Assembly: GCA_900552565.1 (NCBI GenBank)
Contig: USAK01000006.1
Span: forward strand, 6,562-70,561
DNA length: 64,000 nucleotides
Direction: 5' to 3'
From: an uncultured Selenomonas sp.
GTDB lineage: Bacteria; Bacillota; Negativicutes; Selenomonadales; Selenomonadaceae
In this document: one piece after another, positions 26,998 to 60,265 of the stretch
Position numbering within the stretch: position 1 is the stretch's first letter
How the letters are laid out: every line of letters starts with the position of its first letter
Made by a program: the position numbers and the translations under genes
Notes under the pieces: generated by a model
The model's database searches: none
What the model was told of the DNA's origin: nothing
What the model saw: only the letters and a program-made list of their open reading frames with translations

Positions 26998-27023
26998 AAA
27001 AAAAGGCCTCAGATGAGGTCTTT
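26998..27023 (-). terminator. Terminator at the end of the ABC/GNAT operon
   Basis: GACCTCA-tc-TGAGGCC followed by eight T in the minus direction. The hairpin includes the acetyltransferase stop codon. Confidence 0.8.
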
Positions 27024-27497
27024 GCGCAGATAAACCGTGCGGTGCTGTTTCCCCGGCAGCTGCACTTCGCGAAAGGCGCGGAAACCGAGCTTCTCGTACA
27101 TACGCCGCAGCCACGGATGGCTCGTCGCCGTGCCCAGCGTCACGAAGGGAACCTTAAGCTGCTTTTTGAGAACTTCTTCCAGAACGAGATTGATGAGCTT
27201 TGAGGCATAGCCTTTATGCATATGCTCCGGTGCCGTGACGACCTGCCCGATATGCGGCACGCCCTCGGGCCCGGGATTTGGTCCCCACGGCATGCGCAGG
27301 GAAACGGCGCTGACGAGCACATCCCCTTCAAACAGGCCGTACGTGGGATTCTTTGCGAGCCATTCGCGCTCCTGTTCTTTCGTCGCCGTAATCGCGGAAA
27401 AAGAAATCGGGTACTTCTTATCCGTCTGATAGCCCTCGTGCAGCACGTGGTAATAAGCATCGAGGTCATTTTCGCCGAGTTCACGGTATGTTGTCAT
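27009..27497 (-). CDS. GNAT-family N-acetyltransferase
   Basis: A 162-residue acetyl-CoA-dependent acetyltransferase: beta4/motif A region PHIGQVVTAPEHMHKGYASKL and the C-terminal HPWLRRMYEKLGFRAF. It is the last gene of a unit that also encodes an amino-acid ABC transporter and an MmgE/PrpD protein. This suggests that it acetylates the imported amino acid or adduct, as GNAT enzymes do in the Bacillus yxe and ytm S-(2-succino)cysteine operons (context analogy only). The substrate is not deducible from sequence. Confidence 0.8.
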   Translation of the reverse strand: MTTYRELGENDLDAYYHVLHEGYQTDKKYPISFSAITATKEQEREWLAKNPTYGLFEGDVLVSAVSLRMPWGPNPGPEGVPHIGQVVTAPEHMHKGYASKLINLVLEEVLKKQLKVPFVTLGTATSHPWLRRMYEKLGFRAFREVQLPGKQHRTVYLRKDLI

Positions 27498-27524: not shown

Positions 27525-28292
27525 TTATATACCAGCACCGTCGCGCAGCACATTGCCGCCAAGATAGCGGTTGAGGAATGCCTTCGTGCGTTCTTCACGC
27601 GGATGTACGAGAACTTCTTCAGGCGTCCCCGTCTCGACCACGGAGCCGCCTTCCATAAAGACAATTTGGTCAGCGACTTCACGGGCAAAGGCAATCTCAT
27701 GCGTCACGATAATCATCGTGACCTTGAGTTTCTTCGCGACGTCGCGGATAACCGACAGGACCTCGCCGACAAGCTCCGGGTCAAGGGCACTCGTCGGCTC
27801 GTCAAACAGGATGACCTGCGGATTGACCGCCAGCGCCCTTGCGATACCGACGCGCTGCTGCTGGCCGCCCGAGAGCTGCGCCGGATATTTTTCGGCGTGC
27901 TCTGCCATGCCAACCTGCCGCAGGAGTTCTTCTGCTTTCGCGCGCGCGGCTGATTTTTTTTGGCCCTGCACCGTCACCAGTGCTTCCATGACATTTTCAA
28001 GTGCTGTCATATTGGAAAACAGATTGTACGACTGGAAGACCATGGCCGTCTGGCGGCGCACGGCAAGAATCTCCTTGTGCGAAGCGCCGTGGAGGTCATA
28101 GCTCTGGTCATTGATGTAGAGGCGTCCGCCATCGGCACGCCCCAAAAAATTAATTGTGCGCAGGAAAGTCGTCTTGCCGCTGCCCGAAGGCCCGAGAATG
28201 ACGGTCACACTGCCCGTCGGCACCGTCATGCTGATATCCTTCAGGATGACTTTATCGCCAAAGGCTTTTTTTACATGTTCCAATTTTATCAT
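27525..28292 (-). CDS. Polar amino-acid ABC transporter, ATP-binding protein
   Basis: A 255-residue ATPase of the GlnQ/HisP group: Walker A GPSGSGKTT, Q-loop VFQSYNLF, signature LSGGQQQR, Walker B VILFDEPTSALDPELVGEV and IIVTHEIAFA. ATG 28292, with AGAGG 8 nt upstream, overlaps the preceding permease stop by 4 nt. It energizes the adjacent two permeases and lipoprotein. Confidence 0.93.
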   Translation of the reverse strand: MIKLEHVKKAFGDKVILKDISMTVPTGSVTVILGPSGSGKTTFLRTINFLGRADGGRLYINDQSYDLHGASHKEILAVRRQTAMVFQSYNLFSNMTALENVMEALVTVQGQKKSAARAKAEELLRQVGMAEHAEKYPAQLSGGQQQRVGIARALAVNPQVILFDEPTSALDPELVGEVLSVIRDVAKKLKVTMIIVTHEIAFAREVADQIVFMEGGSVVETGTPEEVLVHPREERTKAFLNRYLGGNVLRDGAGI

Positions 28293-29008
28293 ATCTTGCA
28301 CCTCTTATACGAGGAAAGCCGGTCCTCGAGCTTCGTGAACAAAAATTCAAACAGGACGCCCATGCCCCAATACAGGCAGGCAGCCACGATGTAGGCTTCA
28401 AAGTACTGCGAATTGTCCTCGCAGAACAGTTTCGCCGCGCCAAAGACCTCGATGACTGTAATGACGAAGACGATACTCGTACTCTTCATCGTCGAAAGGA
28501 ACTGGTTGGCAAACAGCGGCAGGGCAAAAACAACGGCCTGCGGGAAAATGACGCGGCGGTACATCTGCCACGACGTCATGCCCATGGCACGCGCAGCTTC
28601 AAACTGCCCTTCCGGCACCGAGGCGAGCGCGGCGCGGAAAATCTCGCTGAGGTACGCCCCCGTATGGAGCGTCAGGCCAATAACGGCCACGGCCATCGCC
28701 GGCACCTGCTCTACGGGCACATGGATGCCGGTCTTGCCGCGCAACGCTAAAAATGCCAGCGGCAGGCCGTAGTAAACGAGATAGAGAAGCACCATATTCG
28801 GGATGCTGCGGCAGACATAAACGTAAAGCCGGAACAATTTCCCAAGAACCGGGACTTCGCTGCGCTGCGCAAGGCAGCTCACGAGGCCGAGCAGCGCGCC
28901 CAAAAAGACACTCGACAAGGTCAAAAACAGTGTGACCTTGATGTACGGCAGGATAAAAGCAAAGCCCTGTGCTACGTATTGCCAATCAATCAAACTATGT
29001 CCATTCAT
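28289..29008 (-). CDS. Amino-acid ABC transporter permease (second)
   Basis: A 239-residue permease of the His/Glu/Gln family with about five helices and the coupling motif GAYLSEIFRAALASVPEGQFEAA. It starts 3 bp after the other permease, so the pair probably forms a heterodimeric channel. Part of the MmgE/PrpD-ABC-GNAT operon. Confidence 0.92.
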   Translation of the reverse strand: MNGHSLIDWQYVAQGFAFILPYIKVTLFLTLSSVFLGALLGLVSCLAQRSEVPVLGKLFRLYVYVCRSIPNMVLLYLVYYGLPLAFLALRGKTGIHVPVEQVPAMAVAVIGLTLHTGAYLSEIFRAALASVPEGQFEAARAMGMTSWQMYRRVIFPQAVVFALPLFANQFLSTMKSTSIVFVITVIEVFGAAKLFCEDNSQYFEAYIVAACLYWGMGVLFEFLFTKLEDRLSSYKRCKI

Positions 29009-29011
29009 ATC

Positions 29012-29722
29012 TTACGCCTCACTGAGTTCTGCAATATCCCGGCCGCCTTTTTTCCGTTTCTCAAGGAAACGGCCAAGGCGCGCAATCAGGAAAATCAAGA
29101 TGCCATAGATGATGGCCACATCCACGTAAAGCTCCAGGCTGCGCTGGGAATTGCCCGCCATGAGCTCAGCCTTGCGCATGATGTCGACAACGCCGACATT
29201 GAAAATCAGGCTTGTGCCCTTGACAACACCGATGACCGTATTGACGAGAGCCGGCAGTGCCATGTGAAAGGCCTGCGGCAACACGACGCGCCGGTACATC
29301 TGTACGGAGGTCATGCCCAGACTCATCGCCGCTTCCTTTTCACCCACAGGCACCGCGAGGATGCTCGAGCGCATGATTTCAGCGCCGTAAGCCGCCATAT
29401 GCAGCGTAAAGACCGCGAGCACAAAGGCTAAAGGCGGCACGCCCTTCATGCTGATGCCAATGTAGGAAAGGATTTCCGGCACGCCGAAGTAAGCGAGAAA
29501 AAGCTGTACGAGGAAAGGCGTGCCCCGCATGAAGGAAATGAACACGCGCAGCAGGGGTGCTAAGACCGGCACCTTCTGGATGCGCAGAATCGCGATGACA
29601 GCGCCGAGCAGTATGCCCACAATGGCGGAAAATATCGTCACGAGCAGCGTGATATGTACCATGCCGAGCAGTGTCGGAAAGGATTTTATCATATAGGCGA
29701 TGTCAAAATATGTTCCCATCAT
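29012..29722 (-). CDS. Amino-acid ABC transporter permease (first)
   Basis: A 236-residue permease of the same family: RGTPFLVQLFLAYFGVPE and the EAA-type loop AYGAEIMRSSILAVPVGEKEAA. About five helices. It partners the next permease and the ATPase. Two different permeases are typical of cystine and glutamate-type systems. Confidence 0.92.
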   Translation of the reverse strand: MMGTYFDIAYMIKSFPTLLGMVHITLLVTIFSAIVGILLGAVIAILRIQKVPVLAPLLRVFISFMRGTPFLVQLFLAYFGVPEILSYIGISMKGVPPLAFVLAVFTLHMAAYGAEIMRSSILAVPVGEKEAAMSLGMTSVQMYRRVVLPQAFHMALPALVNTVIGVVKGTSLIFNVGVVDIMRKAELMAGNSQRSLELYVDVAIIYGILIFLIARLGRFLEKRKKGGRDIAELSEA

Positions 29723-29752: not shown

Positions 29753-30595
29753 TTATTCTGCCGGAGCCTCGGTATAATCTGCACCAAGATATTTCTCGGA
29801 AAGCTTCTTGAGCGTACCGTCTTCCTTCATGGTTTTGAGGGCCGCATCGATTTTATCAGCGACCTGCTGCATATCATCATCCTTGCGCAGCAGGAAATAC
29901 GTCGGGACCTGCGTCAGCGTCGGGCCCACCGTCTTGATGGGAAGGTTTTTGTCCTTCTGGGCGACCGACACGATGTACTCATATTCGCCGGCAGCCTGGG
30001 CGCGGCCCGTGGCAACGAGGTTCATCGTCTCCGAAGGTCCTTTGTCCGTATAGACAATCTCAATCGGCGTATCGGCCGTCTCGTTGAACTTCTTGACGAG
30101 GTCTGCGAACTCAGAGTTCGTCGTGACGGCTACTTTCTTGCCCTTGAGGTCGTCGAGGGATTTTGTCGTATCATCATCCTTCGGCACGACGAGTTTGCGC
30201 ACCGTGTAGTTGTTAAGCTCTTTCGGGAAGATGTACTTCTCATCGCGGGCCGGCGAATGACGCATCTGGTTGGCAATCATATCGACCTGCGAAGAGTCCA
30301 TGGCAACAAAGGCCGCATCGACAGCCATCGGCTTAAACGTGAAATGCAGGCTCGGGTCGCGTTTTTCGATTTCCTTGAGGACTTCGACATCGTAGCCCGT
30401 GAGCTTGCCATCATCATCCGTATACGAATACGGCTTGACCGTGCCGCGCGTTGCCACGACGATGTTCTTGGCATCCTTATTGCCGCTGGCGCTGTTGTCG
30501 CTCTCATCACTGCCGCAGCCGGCCAGTACGCTGAGCCCTGCAATCATCATGGCTGCCAGTAAGACACGCAGGAATTTATTTGGTAGTTTCATCAA
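29753..30595 (-). CDS. Amino-acid ABC transporter substrate-binding lipoprotein
   Basis: A 280-residue family 3 solute-binding protein with a lipoprotein signal: basic MMKLPNKFLR, hydrophobic core and lipobox LAGC (Cys27). The mature part has VVATRGTVKPYSYTDDDGKL, GYDVEVLKEI and DMIANQMRHSPARDEKY. This fold is shared with cystine-binding TcyA/YxeM-like proteins, but ligand residues were not assigned. Its start lies 20 nt inside the end of the MmgE/PrpD gene, with GGAGCG as ribosome site, showing translational coupling. Confidence 0.92.
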   Translation of the reverse strand: MMKLPNKFLRVLLAAMMIAGLSVLAGCGSDESDNSASGNKDAKNIVVATRGTVKPYSYTDDDGKLTGYDVEVLKEIEKRDPSLHFTFKPMAVDAAFVAMDSSQVDMIANQMRHSPARDEKYIFPKELNNYTVRKLVVPKDDDTTKSLDDLKGKKVAVTTNSEFADLVKKFNETADTPIEIVYTDKGPSETMNLVATGRAQAAGEYEYIVSVAQKDKNLPIKTVGPTLTQVPTYFLLRKDDDMQQVADKIDAALKTMKEDGTLKKLSEKYLGADYTEAPAE

Positions 30596-31889
30596 AAATC
30601 GCTCCTTCTATCCATTCTATGCAGTGCCCGAGCGTTCCCTCAGGCCATCCGCCAACATCCTTCACGATTCTGGCCGCAGTTTCATTTCCTGCTGCCATTT
30701 CAAGTTTTTCCTTTTCCTGAGCAAAGGTCAGCGGCCTTGCCGGCGACCCCTGCGGGTCGCGCACATCGGCCTGCCACTGCCTGCCGTCTCTTGTCAGGGC
30801 CGTCAGCGGCACGGCCCGCTCAGCAAGCGGCAGTGCCGGCACATCGTAAGCCCGCTGAATTTTCAGCAGGTCCTTTAAGAATTCTGCAGGCACTTTGCTG
30901 CGCCTGAAAGCCGCATCATCGATATGCCCATACGTCAAAACCTGCCAGATGACATATTCCACGGAAAACTGGCCTTCGCGGCCCGTCTGCGGCTTTTGGT
31001 AACGCAGCGCCCTGTCTGCTCCCGGCGGGAAATGCGCCGTGAGGCTCTCGACATCCGCCATGCGCAGTCCTTCCTTGTAGAGCTTTTCTGCCCCATCGGC
31101 TGCACAGATGGCAGCCGAGCAGTACATATGGCGCTTCATCCAGAGCCCCGGGCGGATGACCTGTCCAGGGCTTAGCCAATCGCTTTGAAACTTGTCTTTG
31201 GCAAATTTGCATTGGCTGTCTGAAAATACCGCGAGCCAGCCCGTTTCATCATTGAAGAGATTCGTGCGGGCCGTGAGTCCGGCCTCAACAAGGCATGCAG
31301 CCTGCAGCGCATGGGCCGCAGCAAAGCCTGCATGCAGCGGCTTGCCGTCGGAGCCAGCCTCAAAGGCCATGCCCGCTGACTGCGTAGCCGCAAGTGACAG
31401 GACCATCGCTGCTTTCTCCCCCTGCCAATGGTGCAGGCGGCTAAGTGCGGCGGCCGCTCCGAGTACACCGATGGTGCCCGTTGCGTGCCAGCCCTGCCGG
31501 CGGTGCTCCGGATTGAGCCGTTTTCCCAAGAGCCCTTCAAGCTCGGCGCCTGCAATATAGGCCGCGAGAAAATCATGGACCGAATCCTCCGGACAGGCCG
31601 CAGCCAGCAGCGCAGAATAAAGCACCGTGCTGAAATGGCCGGTAAGATTTGCCTGTGCATCATCAAAATCGAGGAAGTGCGAAGCAAATCCATAAAGAAG
31701 GGCCTTGTCCTCCGGACGGTCCGCAGAGATGCACCGAGAAAGTTTCTTCACGGCCGGTTCCTGACGTGCGGCCAGAAGGGCGGCAAGATAATCAACGAAA
31801 GCAAGCTTTGCCTGCCCGATGAGGTCTTCACGCCCTTGAAGGTCTACTGACGCAATCAGGCGGACGGCCAGTTCCGTATTTTCATCCAT
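30576..31889 (-). CDS. MmgE/PrpD-family protein
   Basis: A 437-residue protein of the family containing 2-methylcitrate dehydratase and iminosuccinate-related enzymes: FLDFDDAQANLTGHFSTVLY, RRQGWHATGTIGVLGAAAAL and AGFAAAHALQAACLVEAGL. It is likely a hydro-lyase or epimerase-like enzyme. Citrate-cycle neighbours are absent. Instead it leads an amino-acid ABC transporter and a GNAT gene, the set seen in Bacillus yxe (YxeQ being MmgE/PrpD). A role in breaking down an imported succinylated or otherwise modified amino acid is plausible but unproven. Confidence 0.85.
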   Translation of the reverse strand: MDENTELAVRLIASVDLQGREDLIGQAKLAFVDYLAALLAARQEPAVKKLSRCISADRPEDKALLYGFASHFLDFDDAQANLTGHFSTVLYSALLAAACPEDSVHDFLAAYIAGAELEGLLGKRLNPEHRRQGWHATGTIGVLGAAAALSRLHHWQGEKAAMVLSLAATQSAGMAFEAGSDGKPLHAGFAAAHALQAACLVEAGLTARTNLFNDETGWLAVFSDSQCKFAKDKFQSDWLSPGQVIRPGLWMKRHMYCSAAICAADGAEKLYKEGLRMADVESLTAHFPPGADRALRYQKPQTGREGQFSVEYVIWQVLTYGHIDDAAFRRSKVPAEFLKDLLKIQRAYDVPALPLAERAVPLTALTRDGRQWQADVRDPQGSPARPLTFAQEKEKLEMAAGNETAARIVKDVGGWPEGTLGHCIEWIEGAIFDETTK

Positions 31890-31940: not shown

Positions 31941-33029
31941 TTATTTTGCAAACTTTGCAGCGCGGTCGTTCGGCTCGAGCCAGCGGCTGTCATCCGGTCC
32001 TTTCGGTACAATGCGCTTGAGGTCTGCAAACGGCGTGTGGTCGACATAATAGAAGCGTTTGCGCATAGCATCGAAGTCCGTGTTGTTGCCAAACGCCGGA
32101 TTCGAGTAGAGGTCCTTCGCGTAATTCCAGAGATTCGGGTAATCGACAAGGCGTTTTTTGTTGACGAAGTACTTCTGATAGAAAACGAGGTCAAAGCGCG
32201 AAAGCGTCACGAACAGGCGGATATCCGGCAGCGTGATTGTATCGCCCATGAGATAGCGGCGCGTCGAAAGACGTTCTTCGAGCCAGTCAAGGCGGTCAAA
32301 AATCTTATCGTAGTAGAATTCATATTCTTCCTGCGTGCCGACGAGAGCTGCGAGGTTGACGGCGAGGTTGACATCGGCGTAAAGGATGATGTTCAGCGCA
32401 TCAATGTCCTCACGAAGGTCTTCCGGATAGATATCCGGAGCATCCTTGGCGATGTAATCCTTAAAAGCCACGGCGAGTTCGGCATCGAGCACATGGTAGT
32501 CATTGTTGACGACCTTGCCCGTCTTGACATCGACGAGGGCCGGCACCGTTGCGCGCTGGTCAAAGTCAGGGTCTGCCTTTTTATAGCACTCGCCGAGGGA
32601 ATGCACGCCGAGCACCGGGTCTTTTTCTTCGGGGTCGAGCGTGAAGAACCAGTCGCCGACGACACCAGCCGGACGCAGCGGGTCAACAACGCCCTTCGAG
32701 ATAACCTTGTCAAGTCCGAGAAGGTCAATCGCAATCGAGATGCGGTTGGCCCAAGGGCAGTGGCGCGACCAGATGAGACGGTAGCGGTTGGCTTCCACCG
32801 GCAGCTCGCCCGTCAGGAAGCTCGCCGTGAACTGCGGCTCTTCCTCATCGCTGTATTTCTTGCGGCGGTTGAAGTTCGAGGCATCGCGGCCATCATACTC
32901 TTTCTGTTCGCCGTTAGCGCGCGGGTTCGTCGTCTGCAGTTCCGAAAAATCAATCGGGCACGGGTCCATCGCACGCTTGAATTCTACTTTTTTTCTCTCT
33001 TTTGCAATATCCTGATCTTTGATAGCCAT
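31941..33029 (-). CDS. Xi-class glutathione transferase / glutathionyl-hydroquinone reductase homologue
   Basis: A 362-residue Omega/Xi-type GST (ECM4/YqjG family): N-terminal WSRHCPWANRISIAIDLLGL with the active-site Cys in CPWA, DWFFTLDPEEKDPVLGVHSL, TVPALVDVKTGKVVNNDYHV and the C-terminal helical part DTITLPDIRLFVTLSRFDLVF. Such enzymes reduce glutathionyl-quinones in aerobes. ATG 33029 follows AAGAGGA. Only 51 bp separate it from the MmgE/PrpD gene, so it may be first in that operon. No glutathione synthesis gene is visible here, so the thiol partner is open. Confidence 0.88.
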   Translation of the reverse strand: MAIKDQDIAKERKKVEFKRAMDPCPIDFSELQTTNPRANGEQKEYDGRDASNFNRRKKYSDEEEPQFTASFLTGELPVEANRYRLIWSRHCPWANRISIAIDLLGLDKVISKGVVDPLRPAGVVGDWFFTLDPEEKDPVLGVHSLGECYKKADPDFDQRATVPALVDVKTGKVVNNDYHVLDAELAVAFKDYIAKDAPDIYPEDLREDIDALNIILYADVNLAVNLAALVGTQEEYEFYYDKIFDRLDWLEERLSTRRYLMGDTITLPDIRLFVTLSRFDLVFYQKYFVNKKRLVDYPNLWNYAKDLYSNPAFGNNTDFDAMRKRFYYVDHTPFADLKRIVPKGPDDSRWLEPNDRAAKFAK

Positions 33030-33070
33030 ATGATTTTCCTCTTTTCTTCTTTCAATCTAAAAATTAGCAC

Positions 33071-33211
33071 AAAAAAGGAGACTCCAAGCGAGCCTATGGA
33101 ACTGTTCAAAAAATGACTGTGCCTTAGTGGGCTCCATTGTCATCCTTCGAGACAAAATTCATTCCATATGCTGCTCAGAGTCTCCAATTCTTTTGGTCAA
33201 CTCATCTTATG
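33071..33211 (-). ncRNA. Unidentified structured RNA (small RNA or riboswitch-like leader)
   Basis: A promoter drives about 141 nt that fold as a long rod. GGAGACTC (33185-33178) pairs with GAGTCTCC (33084-33077), GAGC with GCTC, and TATGGAA with TTCCATA. These enclose an internal bubble and an apical stem ATGAC/GTCAT. The 3' end is TTTTTT (33076-33071), so the outer helix acts as terminator. The shape resembles 6S RNA, but no conserved 6S sequence was recognised. Because the GST gene starts 42 nt later, it could instead be a ligand-sensing leader. Confidence 0.55.
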
Positions 33212-33217
33212 GGCTTA

Positions 33218-33246
33218 ATCATATCAGTAAAAACATATATTGTCAA
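33218..33246 (-). promoter_or_regulatory. Promoter of the structured RNA
   Basis: TTGACA (33246-33241) and TATGAT (33223-33218) with a 17-nt spacer on the minus strand, close to consensus. Confidence 0.8.
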
Positions 33247-33275
33247 TATGTTTTGTATAAATTTTTTGAGAAAAT

Positions 33276-33308
33276 AAAAAAAGACCGCATGGCCTGCATA
33301 CGGTCTTT
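33276..33308 (-). terminator. Terminator of the tRNA-Val pair
   Basis: AAAGACCG-c-ATG and CAT-a-CGGTCTTT form a hairpin just after the second tRNA, T-rich in the minus direction. Confidence 0.8.
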
Positions 33309-33318
33309 ATCTTCATCT

Positions 33319-33395
33319 TGGTGCTCGCTGAGGGATTCGAACCCCCGACCCCCTCCATGTGACGGAGATGCTCTAGCCAACTGAGCTAAGCGAGC
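33319..33395 (-). tRNA. tRNA-Val (anticodon CAC)
   Basis: A full cloverleaf: acceptor GCTCGCT pairs with AGCGAGC, D arm GCTC/GAGC, anticodon stem TCTCC/GGAGG with loop GTCACAT (anticodon CAC, codon GUG), T loop TTCGAAT. The CCA end is encoded. Transcribed after the tRNA-Val(GAC) gene from a shared promoter. Confidence 0.93.
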
Positions 33396-52270: not shown

Positions 52271-52384
52271 TGTCTATTGAATGCTGCTACTAAAAACATA
52301 GTCAAAAGTGCCTACATCTAGAAAAATTCCTTATTCATCGTGCATGTTTTTGCTCTGAAAGTTCAGCAGCTACTCACAAGTTCT

Positions 52385-52560
52385 AGTGCACGCCAAAGGC
52401 GTTGATGAATTCCAATCTGTTAATATAGGAAAATCATCTGTTCCCGACTAGCCATCGGTACATTTGTCATAATAACTTCTGTTTCAGATAATCTTATACT
52501 CTGTCGTATCTCGTAAATTGAGCGCTGCGTTAAAATCACGATCTGCTGTATAACCGCAAA
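52385..52560 (-). ncRNA. Candidate omega RNA of the TnpB element
   Basis: In this family the guide RNA comes from the tnpB 3' end and the element right end. Here that stretch holds CCGA/TCGG and ACGCC/GGCGT hairpins directly after the stop. Ends are approximate and the guide boundary is not determinable without the element border. Confidence 0.3.
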
Positions 52561-60162: not shown

Positions 60163-60170
60163 TTAATTAG

Positions 60171-60265
60171 ATGCTGTGCAACTGACGGAAGTGGATGACC
60201 ACAGGGAGCACAGGGAAGAAGAGCCGACCGTCTGGGCACCGCCTGGATTTGTGTCGGCCTTTTTG
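60171..60265 (+). promoter_or_regulatory. ZTP (pfl-type) riboswitch with terminator platform
   Basis: Conserved pfl features in order: GCTGTGC/GCACAG stem, GACGGAAGTGG, hairpin GTGG-atga-CCAC, AGGGAGC, then CCGACCGTCTGGGCA. The platform is a terminator, GCCGAC (60223-60228) with GTCGGC (60253-60258) and T6. ZTP or ZMP, which rises when 10-formyl-tetrahydrofolate is short, should prevent termination and switch on the AICAR transformylase gene. Confidence 0.85.

Follow-up and report, generated by a model that had tools for sequence, protein, structure and literature searches.

Sulfur control in Gram-positive relatives of the bacteria studied here is known to involve SAM riboswitches, T-boxes and CymR. 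Closest in build to the leader described below are several antitermination systems. In the ribonucleic antiterminator (RAT) of the BglG/SacY family, a small imperfect hairpin shares sequence with the base of an intrinsic terminator, so that only one of the two can form (PMC9981650, in excerpt), the targets of ANTAR proteins carry two hairpins with hexanucleotide loops in which A comes first and G fourth (PMC3369931, in excerpt), and in the HMP-PP (thiS) riboswitch it is the aptamer that overlaps and excludes the terminator (PMC6478431, in excerpt). In addition, attenuator candidates upstream of sulfonate ABC transporter genes were reported in bacilli by Naville and Gautheret in 2010 (PMC2965389, in excerpt).

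Here, we analyzed a leader located in a 64,000-nt stretch of DNA from an uncultured Selenomonas sp. (hereafter the window). At its 5' end the leader carries a 26-nt hairpin whose 3' half is also the 5' arm of the terminator. Since the same hairpin recurs ahead of genes for sulfur uptake and assimilation in numerous relatives, the family appears to be a so far undescribed RNA switch by which genes are turned on during sulfur shortage.

Results

The leader of the GST operon ends in a long rod-like terminator

The leader and the operon behind it comprise the following features (L and G numbers used below are our own labels).

33218..33246, minus strand: sigma-A-type promoter, with -35 TTGACA (33246-33241), a 17-nt spacer and -10 TATGAT (33223-33218), matching the consensus at 11 of 12 positions
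33178..33203, minus strand: antiterminator hairpin GAGUU-GA-CCAA-AAGAA-UUGG-A-GACUC, the conserved element, 26 nt, beginning at about +9 (from comparison and covariance model)
33170..33185, minus strand: 5' arm of the intrinsic terminator, which opens with the strand that it shares with the antiterminator hairpin, namely the 3' strand of the latter (the shared strand; from fold and comparison)
33095..33169, minus strand: interior of the terminator stem-loop, unusually long and conserved in M. multacida (from comparison)
33071..33094, minus strand: 3' arm of the terminator and U-tract (33076-33071; from fold and sequence)
31941..33029, minus strand: first gene, a glutathione S-transferase-like (GST) protein of 362 aa (Pfam GST_C_2/GST_N_2)
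30576..31889, minus strand: MmgE/PrpD family protein (annotation search)
29753..30595, minus strand: family-3 solute-binding protein, whose best NCBIfam match is a cystine binding protein at 112 bits, below the cut-off of 312
28289..29722, minus strand: two ABC permease genes (29012-29722 and 28289-29008; annotation search)
27525..28301, minus strand: ABC transporter ATPase (annotation search)
27009..27497, minus strand: GNAT acetyltransferase (annotation search)

The near-consensus promoter proposed in an earlier note on this DNA is indeed present. Since shuffled sequences yield a mean of 0.7 such sites against the one found here, the pattern alone is weak evidence; the Mitsuokella multacida copy of the leader is preceded by the same promoter, with the same spacing to the hairpin. 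On the minus strand, the promoter is itself preceded by a terminator-like hairpin (33308-33280) that lies behind two tRNA genes. The transcription start, predicted at about 33211 from the spacing to the -10, gives a transcript of 141 nt (33211-33071) with a minimum free energy of -55.6 kcal/mol (z -6.7), and none of 200 shuffles was as stable. It folds as a nested rod with internal loops that runs into a U-tract, 41 nt short of the GST gene, so that the anatomy given in the earlier note (nested helices and a terminator) holds.

M. multacida carries the region ahead of the same GST gene with 85% identity over 209 nt, and its leader folds alike (z -4.8). This pair of sequences alone says little about the rod, because among the 39 consensus pairs 3 change on one side and none on both. 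The earlier note had taken the rod with its central bubble for the functional fold; the rod does exist but it is the OFF (terminator) state rather than the sensing fold, and the most conserved part of the leader is a 5' segment, overlooked at the time, that is largely unpaired in the rod and forms a competing hairpin. The distance from the shared strand to the U-tract is 101 nt in the window compared to a median of 36 nt in 93 elements, the two Mitsuokella GST leaders being the largest outliers (about 100 nt), followed by L232 (95) and L235 (76). Among the elements compared, the long rod-like interior is thus nearly confined to these two leaders, where it may either merely delay the terminator, giving a factor more time, or form a second domain.

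The 5' hairpin belongs to a widespread family

A nucleotide search across 189 relatives of M. multacida matched 31-32 nt of the 5' part of the leader in two other genomes (E 6e-7 and 2e-6), where a terminator and a metY-like gene come directly after it. With up to 3 mismatches allowed, a 27-nt pattern occurred in 6 of the 189 genomes, against one match for the reversed control pattern. Covariance model R1, built from 7 sequences, found matches in 67 of the same genomes at E <= 1, the weak end of which is largely chance, and several of them clustered at sulfur loci. With model R2 (50 elements), 89 of 380 genomes of the class, which we take to be the Negativicutes from the taxonomy of Mitsuokella, had a match at E <= 0.05; since the class-wide searches were run with stricter filters, misses are likely. 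In a sample of the phylum, R2 matched 9 of 249 genomes at E <= 0.005, of which 4 were already known and 5 were new, coming from outside the class genome set. Judged by core, terminator and genes, the new matches in G429, G468, G524 and G413 look genuine. By the same criteria, the fifth, in G612, does not.

In a search of 83 kb with model R3 (90 elements), the window element scored 41.2 bits (33208-33173, E 3.1e-9). The M. multacida GST leader came second at E 1.1e-7, and no further match was better than E 3.2. Neither Mitsuokella GST leader is among the R3 training rows, which include the M. multacida chromate-transporter element; R1 and R2 helped to choose and align the 90 elements, so that independence holds for the training rows and not for the whole search path. 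At gathering score, no Rfam 15 family lies over the element in the window or at 20 further loci, and lax thresholds gave only sub-threshold matches.

Known RNAs do occur elsewhere: a RAGATH-18 RNA at 52327-52399 (minus strand, 66 bits) and a ZMP/ZTP riboswitch at 60168-60244 (plus strand, 58 bits) in the window, another RAGATH-18 copy in L283, and a skipping-rope RNA at L114:2340-2425 (56.5 bits), near a metY element.

Elements recur ahead of sulfur genes

Family elements stand at metY, metA, cysK, sulfate-transport, sulfite-reductase, larE and mnmA genes, among others. First genes were annotated with tools for 23 elements, including that of the window, and the remaining ones were read by eye. 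First, curated models scored over their cut-offs for a sulfate-binding protein, OAH/OAS sulfhydrylase, cysteine synthase, NifB, MetA (acetyl type), LarE, MnmA and an MtaA/CmuA-type methyltransferase. Second, Pfam identified a chromate transporter, B12-binding domains, an ABC permease and DUF2292; the chromate transporter gene follows the second M. multacida element (L163:4047-4078, minus strand). Third, MetN, an SsuA-type binding protein, a sulfopropanediol dehydratase activase, NirA-type reductases, a NifE-like protein and a weak YeiH-type match were best-scoring but below cut-off. The translations read by eye are presumably those of cysC, ssuB, ssuC and more metY, cysK and sulfate genes.

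One cluster, in G147, carries three elements: the first ahead of a sulfate-binding protein, the second before a permease/ATPase run that reaches PAPS-reductase and sulfite-reductase domain proteins, and the third before metY with a cysK-like gene. Behind some elements lie genes with no plain tie to sulfur: nifB, nitrogenase-like and DapA-like genes, and those for corrinoid-type methyltransferases and a DctA/GltP-type symporter. The window operon itself is only weakly tied to sulfur, through its putative cystine-type binding protein that scores below cut-off.

The hairpin is supported by compensatory changes

Across the family, the hairpin takes the form GAGYU-GA-CCAA-loop-UUGG-A-GRCUC, its 3' strand being the beginning of the terminator stem. 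Covariation among homologues, the check named in the earlier note, was indeed found. In the alignment of 90 elements (88 distinct), 98.6% of 735 cells are paired; the alignment was fitted to a model already containing the hairpin structure, which favours this structure in all such pair counts. Among the 88 distinct elements, double changes occur in 7 of 9 pairs and amount to 136 cells compared to 42.5 in shuffles, a number reached in none of 500 shuffles, and controls with slid partners gave at most 16 such cells. Further pair types in this alignment were not above shuffles (13 against 14.4).

Several positions hardly vary. On the 5' side, U and G are each kept in 89 of 90 elements and A and C in all 90; the first A of the loop and G, A and G of the 3' side are likewise kept in 90 of 90. 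Next to the internal loop, 48 of 88 elements have a C-G pair and 40 a U-A pair, and a U-G pair is retained in 87 of 88. The apical loop is A-rich and of variable length, with A prevailing at columns 19-22, where G occurs in at most 5 of 90 elements at each. Upstream of the hairpin, which in the window begins about 8 nt after the predicted start, no pseudoknot partner was seen.

The hairpin and the terminator exclude each other

Because the 3' half of the hairpin is the 5' arm of the terminator, the two structures are mutually exclusive. The 3' strand pairs into an arm just before a U-tract in 93 of 99 listed elements, or in 93 of 110 when discarded matches are counted; of the 6 failures, 2 lacked a terminator and 4 did not fit the core pattern, in which 4 of 5 lower pairs were required. 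Before this count, 11 matches (two in L162, two in L177 and one each in L164, L148:16744, L175, L176, L178, L184 and L185) as well as near-identical copies had been left out by eye. A later core pattern without the pairing demand found the core in 1 of these 11, L185, where the terminator score was low.

Across 52 distinct base triples, both pairings were standard in 244 of 257 cells, a count that is partly circular since the terminator partner had been read off the fold and the core had been chosen for its lower-stem pairing. Therefore, we repeated the test without either fault by swapping strands among 63 distinct elements. The first 7 nt of the shared strand were complementary to their own pre-U-tract DNA at a mean of 6.33 of 7 positions, compared to 5.01 when swapped (maximum of 300 swaps, 5.33), and 55 of the 63 elements scored at least 6 of 7. 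The lower helix of the hairpin behaved alike, with 4.29 of 5 pairs against 3.80 when swapped (maximum 4.02).

We also computed the partition function of the window transcript at increasing lengths, which gives the equilibrium at each length and not the kinetics. The hairpin had a probability of 0.93-1.00 at all 14 lengths computed from 36 to 130 nt, whereas at 140 and 153 nt it fell to 0.00 and the terminator rose to 1.00. Together, these data show that the leader holds an antiterminator and a terminator that exclude each other and are backed by covariation, as in an attenuator.

Discussion

A sulfur attenuator that would be off by default

The hairpin, its homologues, the mutually exclusive pairing and the gene set come directly out of the computation. 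Taking these observations together, the window sequence is probably a transcription attenuator of a sulfur regulon that is off by default and turned on when something stabilizes the hairpin. We infer that a factor would bind the hairpin at all, that the bound state would be the on state and that the signal would be sulfur limitation.

RNA polymerase would start near 33211 and make the hairpin (33203-33178) within some 35 nt. Unaided, the hairpin would be outcompeted once the 3' arm of the terminator (about 33094-33077) is made, transcription would stop at the U-tract and the GST/PrpD/amino-acid-type ABC operon would stay off. Upon sulfur limitation, a factor would recognize the A-rich apical loop together with the internal loop (U-GA / A-G), which is invariant, and hold the hairpin, which would keep the shared strand from the terminator, so that the operon could be read.

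A separate RNA signal appears to govern the uptake, assimilation and salvage of sulfate and organosulfur in many members of a class of anaerobes. At some loci, the element and a SAM riboswitch in series would form a two-input gate. In L199, the element and its terminator are followed by a SAM-I riboswitch and metA, the order being the same in L197 before a frame that resembles MetA by eye, and in L280 a SAM-I riboswitch precedes the element. Since the two stand in series at these loci, the element should read an input other than SAM. The starvation signal that these bacteria read, as well as the role of DUF2292 proteins, thus becomes testable.

What could hold the hairpin

Since the motif is small and only a handful of positions outside the plain helix are invariant, we think that an RNA-binding protein is somewhat likelier than a metabolite. 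Three protein families were tried as partners (DUF2292, ANTAR and CAT_RBD) and none was present in every element genome searched. CAT_RBD was found in 6 of the 16 element genomes searched. An ANTAR protein was found in 15 of 16, G128 being the exception, and G316 is a further element genome in which none was found. Its presence is uninformative because 277 of 379 genomes of the class at large have one; where neighbours were readable by eye, the ANTAR genes lie near tsaD.

It is nonetheless possible, if on the doubtful side, that the hairpin itself, as a very compact ON riboswitch, binds a small metabolite reporting sulfur status (e.g. O-acetylserine or O-acetylhomoserine). The element is spread widely and regulon-wide, as riboswitches are, stands in series with SAM-I in L197, L199 and L280, keeps its U, G, A, first loop A, A and G positions invariant or nearly so, and has in the thiS riboswitch a precedent for an aptamer that excludes the terminator. 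However, its size of about 26 nt with few unpaired invariant positions, an apical loop of varying length and some 8 nt of upstream RNA in the window, with no pseudoknot partner seen there, speak against this reading.

That the factor is a tandem DUF2292 protein (OscA/YezD type), binding the hairpin as an antiterminator, is in our opinion unlikely. In its favour, DUF2292 is present in 83 of 89 element genomes compared to 60 of 291 others (Fisher 8e-37, ignoring kinship and genome completeness), as well as in each of the four element genomes that were inspected from outside the class (G429, G468, G524 and G413). Moreover, 11 of 30 DUF2292 loci examined (87 kb in total) carry an element at E <= 0.05, three of them weakly, DUF2292 is often adjacent, and the nearest NCBIfam model to the protein is the sulfur starvation response protein OscA, albeit at 43 bits and below the cut-off of 85. 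But the same association could arise if both are simply sulfur genes, DUF2292 is also present in B. subtilis, used as a control, and it is absent at E <= 0.1 from G013 and G118, which both have convincing elements; the other 4 of the 6 element genomes without DUF2292 have weak element matches taken for chance. Overall, we place a protein only slightly ahead of a metabolite. The predicted structure of the DUF2292 protein, with alpha-beta-beta repeats (pLDDT 79) and no clear match among solved folds, is uninformative either way. The tandem DUF2292 proteins encoded at L165:5236-5610 (minus strand) and by like genes end in a conserved GLDGEGI-type tail.

A bolder proposal, which we regard as speculative and rather improbable, is that this one 26-nt hairpin family is the master sulfur-starvation on-switch across Negativicutes and some other Bacillota, with the widespread DUF2292 (OscA/YezD) protein as its sensor or, alternatively, with the hairpin as an exceptionally small metabolite-sensing ON switch. 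If DUF2292 were the sensor, it would be a new kind of RNA-binding antiterminator.

Returning to the attenuator itself, the earlier note had left the choice between a divergent 6S RNA and a riboswitch; a cis-acting regulatory RNA for a thiol or amino-acid operon is supported, and a 6S RNA or other trans-acting sRNA produced by termination at 33071 is very unlikely. The rod with internal loops would suit a 6S RNA, and a terminated product of some kind is expected under every reading. However, M. multacida has a 6S RNA elsewhere (55.5 bits, over cut-off), cmscan gave no match to 6S RNA (RF00013) in the window at gathering score or in 32950-33330 at E <= 10, the conserved unit is the 5' hairpin, which with its competing terminator stands ahead of many different genes and with differing terminators, and the rod interior is not common to the family. 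Least probable of all is that the conserved sequence acts in the DNA, as an operator close to the promoter, and not in the RNA. It is an imperfect palindrome near the start at many loci: 74 of 95 elements have a promoter match (a raw count taken with no shuffled control), and 49 of these 74 lie at most 30 nt downstream of the -10. But the distance to that match varies from 11 to 98 nt whereas the terminator overlap is constant, the two half-sites are unequally spaced, the U-G pair is retained in 87 of 88 elements and the hairpin and the terminator arm both show compensatory changes.

Comparison with known systems

SAM-I (S-box) and T-box leaders exert terminator-based control over the same kinds of genes but are far larger, and neither has an Rfam match over the element. 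The T-box model (RF00230) gave no match in the window, though it finds T-boxes in L006, L009, L010 and L018. The one at L006:8630-8848 lies before the GST orthologue of Megasphaera cerevisiae and carries a UGGA T-box sequence that would suit tRNA-Cys, with a putative specifier, UGC, read by eye. The regions upstream of GST in L001, L002, L003, L004, L007 and L008 (Veillonella and other Negativicutes) show other short inverted repeats by eye, which may be separate regulatory elements.

The candidates of Naville and Gautheret, as described for bacilli, resemble the element in being terminator-overlapping leaders before sulfonate transporters. The thiS riboswitch is likewise compact, with a conserved fold that excludes the terminator by overlapping it; unlike the element, it has, in the excerpted account, a pseudoknotted aptamer and a conserved terminator loop and serves other genes, and no Rfam family matches over the element. 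The leaders targeted by ANTAR proteins (EutV, NasR and AmiR) share an antiterminator hairpin that overlaps the terminator, which in their case is bound by a protein, but the rule of two hairpins and fixed loop positions, as excerpted, does not describe the element: it consists of a single hairpin, the A-rich loop of which varies in length and has G in at most 5 of 90 elements at each of columns 19-22, and the window hardly has space for a second hairpin upstream. As in RATs, the element hairpin overlaps the 5' arm of the terminator in 93 of the 99 listed elements; it differs from them by standing before sulfur instead of sugar genes, with CAT_RBD in only 6 of the 16 element genomes searched. 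We also take its sequence to differ from those of RATs.
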